Part shown: positions 20,154 to 22,684 of the stretch, one piece after another
Layout: each line of letters begins with the position of its first letter
Position numbering within the stretch: position 1 is the first letter of the stretch
Assembly (NCBI GenBank): GCA_903825445.1
Contig: CAIKAS010000067.1
Coordinates: 1 to 42,267 of the forward strand
Reading direction: 5' to 3'
DNA length: 42,267 nucleotides
Source of the DNA: an uncultured Acidobacteriia bacterium
GTDB taxonomy: Bacteria > Acidobacteriota > Terriglobia > Bryobacterales > Bryobacteraceae
Made by a program: the position numbers and the translations under genes
The notes under the pieces: generated by a model
The model's input: the letters and a program-made list of their open reading frames with translations, nothing else
What the model was told of the DNA's origin: nothing
The model's database searches: none

Positions 20154-22424
20154 CTACTCGCTACTGTCAGTAAGTTCCGCCGCTGGATTCGCCTGATGCT
20201 CATGAACGATCCCGAGTACTTCGTCCAGCAGCGGGCCGGTGTCAGCCGTTCTGACGTCGTTCTGCAACCTCCGCAGCGCAAGACTCACCACGTCGCGATG
20301 CCGCAGCTCACTGCCGGCTCCGCGCTCCACCAGTTCCAGCCATAACTGGTGGTTGAGTTCCACATCTTCCGGCCAGAGCCGTGGCGGATGCGGCCCAAGG
20401 TTAAAGTACATCGATTGTCCGCCACTCGCGGAAATAATTTCGAGCGAGAGCGAGGGCCGCGGCGCCTGTAGTTTCTCCCATGCCGCGCCCACCACCTGTC
20501 CCTGTTGTGCCGGAGTCAAAGTGCTCGAGGGCGCCGCCACAATGCGTGAACTTTGCAGCATGGCTGCGGTCTGAACCAGAGCGGTTGCCGGGTCGGATCC
20601 CGGTACCGTGAGCAGCTTCACCGTCTTGCCCGCTTTTTCTGCGACTGCCACTACTCGCGAGAATAGTATGGTTTCCGAATGCGCGAAAACCTGGTCGGGA
20701 TCCAGCCCGTGTTCACCCGATTCCGCCTGTCCCACTACTCGAACGGTGAGGACGACGATGTCCTGACGCCGTGTATCGGTCTTCGACAATGCGCGAATCA
20801 GATGCTCCAGATGGTTGGGGTTGCGCGCGGCCACGATGATGTTGCCCGGCCGGACGTTCATCACGCCCACGGAAATCTCATCGCTGGCCTGTAGCTGGAA
20901 CTGCTCTTCCTCATGGCCCGCATGCGAAATCACGGCATTGTGCCGCTTGTTGTAACGCTCGGATAATTCGAAGATCAGGAAGAACGTCAGCGTGAAGGAT
21001 AAGCCGGAGATCGTGGCTATCTTTTTGGTTAGTACGTTGATGATCGCGAGCGCAAATAGTGCCAGCGTGATCAGGATCAGGCCCAGAGGAATTTCGGTAT
21101 TGCCGATCTTGAAGTTCATCGGCACTTTCCACTCGCGGGCATTTGGCATTTTGTAACGCAGAACGAGTACGGAGAGCGATTTCATCGCGAAACTCCAAAC
21201 TACACCGAACGCGTAAGCTTCTCCCAGCATGCCGACGTCGCCCATGCTGACCACGATAGTGACGAGTTGCAGAATGGCAACCAGATTAATGATCCGGCTG
21301 GTGGTGCCAAATCTACGGTGCGGCTTGCGGAACCACGGCGTCAACACGCCGTCTTCCGCCACGCGGTTCATTACGCCATTGGAGCCGATCAGCGCGGTAT
21401 TCACGGCGCCGGCCAGAATCAACACGCCAACCAGCACCACGAAGCCATGGAAAGCCAGCTTTGCGCCCATGGGGCCCGAAAGGAACATCGAGAGGCCGCC
21501 GATAAGGTTATCCAGATACTTCTGGCGTTCCATATCCGGGATGAGCATGACGGCAAAGAATGAAACCAGCGACGTGAAGACCATGCTGTAGATGAAGATC
21601 ACAAAGCCGGCGCGTTCCAGATTCTTTAGCTTCGGAGACGCGATCTCGCGATTGACCTGCGCCAGGCTCTCTTCGCCGCTCATAGCCAGCAATGAATGGC
21701 CAAGGCCAACCAATATCGCAACGGCGGGGATGGCCGTGACGCCACTTCCCTTCAGCCATCCCAGCGCGTCGGGGCCGAACTTAATGTTGCTCATGGACGG
21801 AAACGGCACCGGTTGATAGCCCTTGCTGAGGATGGTGAACAGGCACCAGACAATCAGCATGACAACCATCACCGTTGTGACCTGCATGATCCGGAGGGCC
21901 TTTTCGCTCGATTCTTCGATGCCAATGATGTTTTTTCGCCAGAAATACAGAGTGACAAGCACCGAAAATCCCGCCGCGAAGTGGGGCTGGTCCACCGGTG
22001 CGTAAGAAAGGTGGAAGTAAGTGATTGACTCATTCACCAGTCCCGCCAGGTATAGTCCCGCGCTCACCGCGCTGATTGGACCAGTCAACACATAGTCGAA
22101 CATGAGCGCCGATACGGAAAACTTCGCCAGCGTCGCGCCCATCGCTTCATGCACCACGCGGTAGACGCCGCCACGGACAAACATGCTGCAGCTCTCGATA
22201 TAGATAGCGCGTACGGCATACGAGAACAGCATGATGCCGAGGATGAACCAGGGGGCCGATTTGCCAATCGCCGTCTCGGCAATGCCGCCAACGTAGTAAG
22301 CGGAAGACGCGAGATCACTCAGAACAATTGCGGCGGCGCGCCAGAAAGAAATGAACGACAGCATCACTGTCGTAGCGACAACGACCTTAGTCGCAGTCGA
22401 GCCGGAAGGCTTCGATATGTCCAT
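20154..22424 (-). CDS. kimA: KimA-type potassium importer (APC superfamily)
   Basis: 756 residues: about twelve membrane helices (roughly 20-520) and a long cytosolic C-terminal part with universal-stress-like segments ('IIVAARNPNHLEHLIRALSKTD', 'IVVLTVRVVG'). KimA (formerly YdaO) of B. subtilis is a high-affinity K+/H+ symporter inhibited by c-di-AMP. From memory of that protein, its K+-site residues Asp36, Tyr43, Tyr118, Thr121, Ser125, Thr230 and Glu233 align here with Asp37, Tyr44, Tyr111, Thr114, Ser118, Ser249 and Glu252. The C-terminal part is about 150 residues longer than in B. subtilis. The start at 22424 has GGAG seven nt upstream. A ydaO-type riboswitch precedes the gene, independently supporting the K+ role over an amino acid permease. 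Confidence 0.87.
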   Translation of the reverse strand: MDISKPSGSTATKVVVATTVMLSFISFWRAAAIVLSDLASSAYYVGGIAETAIGKSAPWFILGIMLFSYAVRAIYIESCSMFVRGGVYRVVHEAMGATLAKFSVSALMFDYVLTGPISAVSAGLYLAGLVNESITYFHLSYAPVDQPHFAAGFSVLVTLYFWRKNIIGIEESSEKALRIMQVTTVMVVMLIVWCLFTILSKGYQPVPFPSMSNIKFGPDALGWLKGSGVTAIPAVAILVGLGHSLLAMSGEESLAQVNREIASPKLKNLERAGFVIFIYSMVFTSLVSFFAVMLIPDMERQKYLDNLIGGLSMFLSGPMGAKLAFHGFVVLVGVLILAGAVNTALIGSNGVMNRVAEDGVLTPWFRKPHRRFGTTSRIINLVAILQLVTIVVSMGDVGMLGEAYAFGVVWSFAMKSLSVLVLRYKMPNAREWKVPMNFKIGNTEIPLGLILITLALFALAIINVLTKKIATISGLSFTLTFFLIFELSERYNKRHNAVISHAGHEEEQFQLQASDEISVGVMNVRPGNIIVAARNPNHLEHLIRALSKTDTRRQDIVVLTVRVVGQAESGEHGLDPDQVFAHSETILFSRVVAVAEKAGKTVKLLTVPGSDPATALVQTAAMLQSSRIVAAPSSTLTPAQQGQVVGAAWEKLQAPRPSLSLEIISASGGQSMYFNLGPHPPRLWPEDVELNHQLWLELVERGAGSELRHRDVVSLALRRLQNDVRTADTGPLLDEVLGIVHEHQANPAAELTDSSE

Positions 22425-22431
22425 TGAATGA

Positions 22432-22457
22432 CTCCGATTTGACTCCCGTTGCGGGAG
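22432..22457 (-). promoter_or_regulatory. Expression platform candidate: hairpin and kimA ribosome binding site
   Basis: On the minus strand, CTCCCG-caa-CGGGAG (22457-22443) forms a 6-bp hairpin just after the aptamer. The kimA Shine-Dalgarno GGAG (22435-22432) follows 7 nt later. The CTCC arm could pair either with its own hairpin partner or with the Shine-Dalgarno, which would let ligand binding control translation. There is no U-tract, so a terminator is less likely. Confidence 0.5.
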
Positions 22458-22473
22458 CACTGCTCTCAAATTT

Positions 22474-22588
22474 GGCCTGCGGGGTTAGCTGACGGGCTGG
22501 AGCTTGAAAGTACTCTGTCCTTGCGGACTACGCCCCCACTGCTTGGTTCCCCCGCTTCAACATGAAGAGTGACATGTTGAATTCGGCA
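22474..22588 (-). ncRNA. ydaO-type c-di-AMP riboswitch aptamer
   Basis: Read on the minus strand the leader of kimA has the ydaO/yuaA architecture known from Thermoanaerobacter tengcongensis. In order: GCCGAA (opening P1 strand, about 22587), a variable hairpin TTCAACATG/CATGTTGAA (arms 22581-22573 and 22564-22556), GCGGGG (22555-22550) followed by GAACC, a GGGGG run, a small TCC-GCAA-GGA hairpin (22527-22518), CCCGTCAGCTAA (22496-22485), CCCCGC (22484-22479, pairing with GCGGGG), and AGGC closing P1. The GAACC and CAGCTAA blocks are the ligand-binding core. In known cases c-di-AMP binding turns expression off, which fits control of K+ import. Confidence 0.92.
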
Positions 22589-22595
22589 CTTGGGT

Positions 22596-22603
22596 AGTTT
22601 AAC
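22596..22603 (-). promoter_or_regulatory. Extended -10 promoter of the riboswitch-kimA transcript
   Basis: Minus strand TG-T-TAAACT (hexamer 22601-22596). The predicted start, about 22589, falls directly before the first aptamer strand, which supports both calls. No good -35 is present. Confidence 0.55.
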
Positions 22604-22625
22604 ATGCAAAACACGCACACACTAT

Positions 22626-22658
22626 AAAAACGGCATCAGGCCTGAGAGCCCGATGCCG
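22626..22658 (-). terminator. Rho-independent terminator of the porin gene
   Basis: Minus strand: CGGCATC (22658-22652) pairs with GATGCCG (22637-22631), with inner GGC/GCC pairs, followed by TTTTT (22630-22626). It lies about 27 nt after the porin stop codon and separates it from the kimA promoter. Confidence 0.88.
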
Positions 22659-22684
22659 CTTGTCAAATCGCCAATCGTACAACT

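Follow-up and report, generated by a model that had tools for sequence, protein, structure and literature searches.

The window analysed here, 42,267 nucleotides from an uncultured Acidobacteriia bacterium of the family Bryobacteraceae, carries on its minus strand a c-di-AMP riboswitch aptamer of the ydaO/yuaA class followed by a gene for an APC-superfamily permease, whose start codon is the first ATG in frame downstream of the aptamer (Table 1). A porin gene lies upstream, and the hairpin behind it likely separates that gene from the riboswitch transcript.

Table 1. Features of the riboswitch and permease locus, in window coordinates.
Feature	Position	Strand	Basis or remark
Hairpin plus T-run behind the upstream porin gene, a likely terminator	22624..22659	-	by eye; missed by consensus scan
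TGTTAAACT, possible extended -10 box immediately 5' to the aptamer	22596..22604	-	sequence; box recurrence in relatives
c-di-AMP (ydaO/yuaA) riboswitch aptamer, RF00379	22458..22598	-	cmscan 69.1 bits, full model
Pseudoknot 5' strand CTTTCAA, in an aptamer hairpin loop	22504..22510	-	pairs with 22463-22469
Pseudoknot 3' strand TTGAGAG	22463..22469	-	pairs with 22504-22510
Hairpin GCTCCCG-CAA-CGGGAGT between pseudoknot strand and Shine-Dalgarno, T-run absent 3'	22442..22458	-	-10.6 kcal/mol, z -3.6
Shine-Dalgarno GGAG, 7 nt before the ATG	22432..22435	-	sequence
Permease of the APC superfamily, 756 aa, resembling KimA in fold, with a USP-like domain at the C-terminus	20154..22424	-	Pfam PF13520; Foldseek

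The RNA belongs convincingly to RF00379 and is an ordinary member of that family. When the whole window is scanned with the Rfam covariance models, the match spans positions 1-134 of the 134-position model with an E-value of 3.9e-14 and a score far above the gathering cut-off of 38 bits, and it is the sole Rfam match even when the E-value limit is raised to 1. The initial annotation had named a ydaO/yuaA riboswitch here, and that claim is borne out by this match, by a second site in the assembly and by sites in at least 35 of 151 related genomes, a lower bound because stricter filters were used. The ordered sequence blocks it had pointed to can be read on the minus strand as GCCGAA (22587-22582), a variable hairpin (22581-22556), GCGGGG (22555-22550) and CCCGTCAGCTAACCCCGCAGGC (22496-22475). 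The interval it had given, 22474-22603, takes in these blocks but misses the 3' pseudoknot strand, which is part of the aptamer. In plain minimum free energy folding the aptamer only modestly beats its shuffles (z -1.93, with 14 of 200 shuffles equally good), so the evidence for it is the covariance match and conservation rather than stability. The aptamer presumably binds c-di-AMP.

An extended -10 box ending just before the aptamer had also been proposed. A consensus sigma-70 scan finds nothing, but a box of the form ATG[C/T]TAA recurs at the aptamer 5' end: 12 of 36 sites have it there, whereas none of 936 control stretches taken from farther upstream does. Some of these controls come from short loci and sample one stretch repeatedly. 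Because of this recurrence, and despite the negative scan, a promoter at the aptamer 5' end is plausible.

The same set of leaders served for the analyses of the pseudoknot, the hairpin, Shine-Dalgarno accessibility and T-runs; it skips eight of 36 leaders, whose start offset falls outside 10-60 nt, and omits L070, L073, L076 and L080, in which the core was not recognised. In the window, the pseudoknot CUUUCAA/UUGAGAG is paired at 7 of 7 positions, in a segment identical to that of one relative (L061). Across 40 distinct segments, counting identical ones once and leaving out two leaders with no recognisable 5' strand, 271 of 280 cells are paired, compared with 262.3 +/- 1.8 after the partners are re-dealt; only 1 of 2000 re-dealings matches the observed pairing. 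The strands were found by similarity to the consensus, which affects the real and the re-dealt sets alike. Covariation of the pseudoknot is therefore supported by this comparison, and the class construct printed in PMC5393176, seen in part, has the same arrangement, CUCCUUCG with CGAAGGAG, as read from its printed sequence.

Downstream of the pseudoknot, a hairpin recurs in the short stretch leading to the Shine-Dalgarno sequence. This stretch folds below the shuffle-mean energy in 37 of 40 distinct leaders, with z of -2.0 or lower in 26, and averages -9.1 kcal/mol against -4.9 for the shuffles (Wilcoxon p 9e-8, for sequences that are not independent); six leaders with no recognised Shine-Dalgarno were left out, and L065, where it was set too early, is counted among the three failures. 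The stem sequences vary from relative to relative at a constant position, with 0-9 nt separating the end of the hairpin from the Shine-Dalgarno. In one relative, represented by two entries for the same place (L059/L106), the Shine-Dalgarno overlaps the pseudoknot strand itself.

Given that no terminator was found and that 37 of 40 leaders have this hairpin between the pseudoknot strand and the Shine-Dalgarno, translational control of the permease by the riboswitch is likely. A terminator after the aptamer was considered and rejected: the consensus scan lists none there, and a run of four T follows the hairpin in 0 of 37 leaders. The silence of the scan is weak evidence by itself, because the same scan missed the upstream hairpin whose T-run is seen by eye. 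Control might instead be transcriptional, through Rho-dependent or non-canonical termination; the prototype ydaO switch works by termination (PMC9960051, in excerpt), and a hairpin 3' of the aptamer in nearly all leaders would suit such a mechanism. The missing T-runs, the empty scan and the closeness of the hairpin to the Shine-Dalgarno argue against it, as does a class member from Streptomyces coelicolor reported to be terminator-less and Rho-independent (cited in the accessible part of PMC9960051), and we regard a transcriptional switch as unlikely. A ydaO-class OFF switch with no terminator, likely acting on translation, has been tested in Corynebacterium glutamicum upstream of nlpC (same source, likewise in excerpt).

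How a translational block might work is less clear from folding. One might look for an anti-Shine-Dalgarno strand within the aptamer, and this candidate was rejected: across 43 leaders, duplicates included, the Shine-Dalgarno is unpaired with a mean probability of 0.42 in full leaders and 0.46 in the platform alone, with no consistent sign of sequestration. In the window leader alone it pairs with the P1 strand with a probability of 0.44. Within the genus, 10 of 15 sites have ACUCUU as the loop of the variable hairpin, a sequence able to pair with the Shine-Dalgarno; the latter does not vary among these leaders, so this pairing gives no covariation. Because folding gives no consistent anti-Shine-Dalgarno, we infer that any block of the ribosome would be steric.

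The organism appears able to make the ligand, as had been predicted. Its genome holds one gene with a DAC domain, CdaA-like by sequence (TIGR00159, 231.1 bits against a cut-off of 188.8), with a gene for a YbbR-domain protein directly after it; the DGA and RHR motifs, which we take to be cyclase motifs, are visible in the protein. A search of the genome for a PgpH-type HD phosphodiesterase found none. Within the assembly (6.27 Mb, 96% complete, 9.2% contaminated), a second RF00379 site (56.4 bits) lies before a paralogous permease that is 56% identical to that of the window and stands head-to-head with cca. Contamination might be the source of this second riboswitch; against it speaks that no close cca match turned up in the assembly outside this contig, the other cca hit being 28% over part of the protein.

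Of 36 RF00379 sites among relatives, 32 precede members of the window's permease family (over 50% identity; five of these assignments rest on alignments under 400 residues), and the remaining four precede other APC permeases, one of them a true KimA (L043, in genome G115, which belongs to a different acidobacterial family within the class). At E<=1e-150, a profile of the permease finds the window's permease family in 107 of the 151 related genomes, and the cyclase domain is found in 115. The latter is present in 33 of 35 riboswitch genomes, counting a weak match of 31.9 bits in G084, compared with 82 of 116 others (Fisher p 0.003, uncorrected for kinship). The two riboswitch genomes with no cyclase domain are 74% and 88% complete. 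Such p-values overstate the case, because relatives are not independent.

Other arrangements were also seen in these genomes. Several, including G006, G020, G033, G036 and G043, have a second DAC-domain match in longer frames (~380-450 aa) beside the usual one. In family f3, of the same order, the cyclase domain occurs in three genomes and is absent in 14 listed, and neither the 107 permease genomes nor the 35 riboswitch genomes include any from f3; part of this family may have lost c-di-AMP signalling. Tandem paralogous permeases, in which one member resembles the window's permease and the other its paralogue, occur in L071, L058, L077 and others, and in L071 and L058 the pair shares one riboswitch and adjoins cca. 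In the window's assembly the two permeases lie apart, each with its own riboswitch, which may reflect a duplicated leader or some other event. Five neighbour proteins of the window copy, compared with the relatives' loci (mostly 2-8 kb), gave a single hit, a 27% porin match in L149, so the surroundings of the window copy are not common to the relatives compared.

The initial annotation called the permease a KimA potassium importer. By sequence this does not hold: the PDB offers no match at E<=10 with phmmer or at E<=0.01 with a 26-member profile, whereas the L043 protein, used as a positive control, matches KimA at 1.3e-154. The window permease aligns with that KimA weakly, at 23% identity (BLASTP, E 6e-6 for a single comparison). 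Its sole Pfam match is PF13520 (AA_permease_2; 169.7 bits, residues 25-483), its C-terminal tail has no Pfam match, and an NCBIfam search with the permease, a PDB sequence search with the tail and a plasmid search gave nothing useful. By fold, the top Foldseek match of the structure model (pLDDT 70.7, pTM 0.55) is KimA with c-di-AMP, 8b70 (E 2.1e-14, TM 0.46/0.60, rmsd 17.8 over 674 columns), with Na-Cl and Na-K-Cl cotransporters ranking closely behind. The KimA residues that bind K+ are Asp36, Tyr43, Thr230 and Tyr377 (PMC10284832, seen in part). In the profile alignment to L043 these positions fall on D37, Y44, S249 (a conservative change) and Y404, each in 26 of 26 rows, where the Y44 assignment requires closing a one-residue gap in the first helix by hand (the alignment as printed gives Y43, with 13 Y and 13 F of 26). 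Since KimA is the nearest solved fold and its K+-site positions are conserved, the permease is likely a KimA-like K+ importer.

It is also possible that the same riboswitch governs a transporter for an amino acid or another osmolyte, with c-di-AMP limiting osmolyte uptake rather than that of K+. The Pfam label is that of an amino acid permease, and amino-acid transporters superpose more tightly than KimA on the membrane part (BASC, rmsd 3.9, TMt 0.80). Three riboswitches of family f10 (L039, L049 and L053, in G117, G132 and G125) stand before permeases of 535 aa; identity to the first of these is 83-85%, and L039, the one that was scanned, scores with models for amino-acid transporters; amino acid transporters are also listed among ydaO-associated genes in the part of PMC7266159 available to us. 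Weighing on the other side are the rank of KimA as best fold match, the invariant D/Y/S/Y positions, the true KimA under the same riboswitch class in L043, and the genome itself, in which Kup was not found. We take the osmolyte reading seriously, as possible and yet on the unlikely side, and continue with K+ as the probable substrate. The resemblance of the permease fold to cation-chloride cotransporters, some of which export K+, raises a further alternative, namely an ON switch by which c-di-AMP would increase expression of an exporter-like cotransporter. Two points speak against it: the pseudoknot strand is near the Shine-Dalgarno, overlapping it in L059/L106, and c-di-AMP riboswitches are described as OFF switches in the literature as far as our excerpts extend; we consider this alternative very unlikely.

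Control by c-di-AMP at the protein level as well had been suggested, and here the evidence is divided. Folded alone, the C-terminal domain, residues 507-756, gives a model (pLDDT 85.8) that recovers a USP fold, and its top match is the c-di-AMP-bound KdpD USP of Staphylococcus aureus, 7ji4 (E 4.7e-5, TMq 0.36), followed by small margins by a cAMP-bound USP, a Csa3 protein and the tails of NCC/KCC cotransporters. On the other hand, the motif by which KdpD-USP binds c-di-AMP, (A/G/C)-X-S-X-S-X2-N-(Y/F) (PMC8214093, PMC4686210, both in excerpt), is absent from the alignment of the permease family, where the matching strand and loop read LVAVRNPxxLxHL by eye. Nor is Arg337, a c-di-AMP contact of KimA, conserved: the window has P363, and the 26 rows hold 18 D, 6 P, 1 I and 1 E.

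We surveyed aptamer loss in 79 named permease relatives, from the best 80 of at least 507 places. Of these 79, 76 carry Acidobacteriota names (L079, L090 and L109 have others), in keeping with the acidobacterial host that had been proposed. Among the 77 with enough upstream DNA, the aptamer core motif, allowing up to three mismatches, is found in 28 and is absent in 49, of which L076 and L080 still score with RF00379 (53.7 and 51.9 bits). By eye, L078 retains the 5' half only, L083 and L086 retain the promoter-like box and the first hairpin, and in L116 the box adjoins the pseudoknot strand; in these four and in L156 the aptamer appears partly deleted or eroded, with the promoter-like box and the permease gene kept. 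A box ATG[CT]TA[AC] lies within 160 nt in 9 of 20 loci chosen from these 49 and searched for it (L078, L079, L081, L082, L083, L086, L090, L112 and L116), and the cyclase is present in all eight tested genomes of these loci (all nine except that of L112). The genome of L090 has an RF00379 site elsewhere. The cyclase test covered 17 genomes chosen from the 49 core-less loci, plus those of the degenerate L076 and L080; a DAC match is absent in 4 of the 17 (L098, L100, L101 and L143). Some relatives have thus lost or eroded the aptamer and yet kept both permease gene and cyclase. Given such remnants before the same gene, in L076 and L080 as well as in L078, L083, L086 and L116, one might ask whether the window's aptamer is itself a relic, recognisable but no longer working. 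Its full-length, high-scoring match, its completely paired pseudoknot, the second intact copy in the assembly and the presence of the cyclase make this most improbable.

The model we favour, and think somewhat probable, is that a ydaO-class c-di-AMP riboswitch turns off a KimA-like K+ importer of the APC superfamily. When K+ is ample, CdaA would make c-di-AMP, by analogy with other bacteria. Two c-di-AMP molecules would then fold the aptamer and lock the 3' pseudoknot, and with only a short hairpin linking the pseudoknot strand to the Shine-Dalgarno, the folded RNA body would abut the ribosome site and block initiation. A drop in c-di-AMP would let the pseudoknot open and the importer be made. 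We speculate further that Bryobacterales and their relatives import K+ through USP-tailed permeases distinct from KimA and doubly controlled by c-di-AMP, via the mRNA riboswitch and the USP tail. Translation would be gated by pseudoknot strand, hairpin and Shine-Dalgarno in a new layout, and repeated aptamer loss would have freed the gene in sister lineages; taken as a whole, this wider picture is quite doubtful. The circuit linking c-di-AMP and K+ is known mainly from Gram-positive bacteria, and our model would extend it to a large, little-studied soil phylum. It names a permease family and a cyclase that can be tested, and the natural variants, with the aptamer lost, eroded or doubled, suit the study of how riboswitch control is gained and lost. 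Within the limited portion of the literature covered, we found no mention of Acidobacteria with a c-di-AMP riboswitch (ydaO) or a diadenylate cyclase, and an earlier mention is possible.

Among known systems, the RF00379 leader of Bacillus subtilis kimA is like the window's in its full aptamer, conserved blocks and 3' pseudoknot, its KimA-like permease and the cyclase in the genome. It differs in that here no terminator was found, the pseudoknot strand, hairpin and Shine-Dalgarno follow one another in the layout described above, and the host is acidobacterial. The C. glutamicum nlpC riboswitch is a ydaO-class RNA that lacks a canonical terminator and has translation as its likely target; it controls a cell-wall peptidase, and the likeness comes from its description in the available part of PMC9960051. 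B. subtilis KimA (6s3k, 8b70, 8b71) is the best-ranked fold match of the whole protein and shares the K+-site D, Y, T/S and Y, yet it has 607 residues to the permease's 756, and the permease lacks a sequence match in the PDB, has a USP-like tail and does not conserve Arg337. The S. aureus KdpD USP with c-di-AMP (7ji4) is the best fold match of that tail, which differs in having no c-di-AMP motif and in matching other USPs and the NCC/KCC tails nearly as well. By these computational comparisons, the locus departs from the textbook case in two ways: its target is a USP-tailed permease related to KimA by fold only, and its expression platform has a terminator-less layout.
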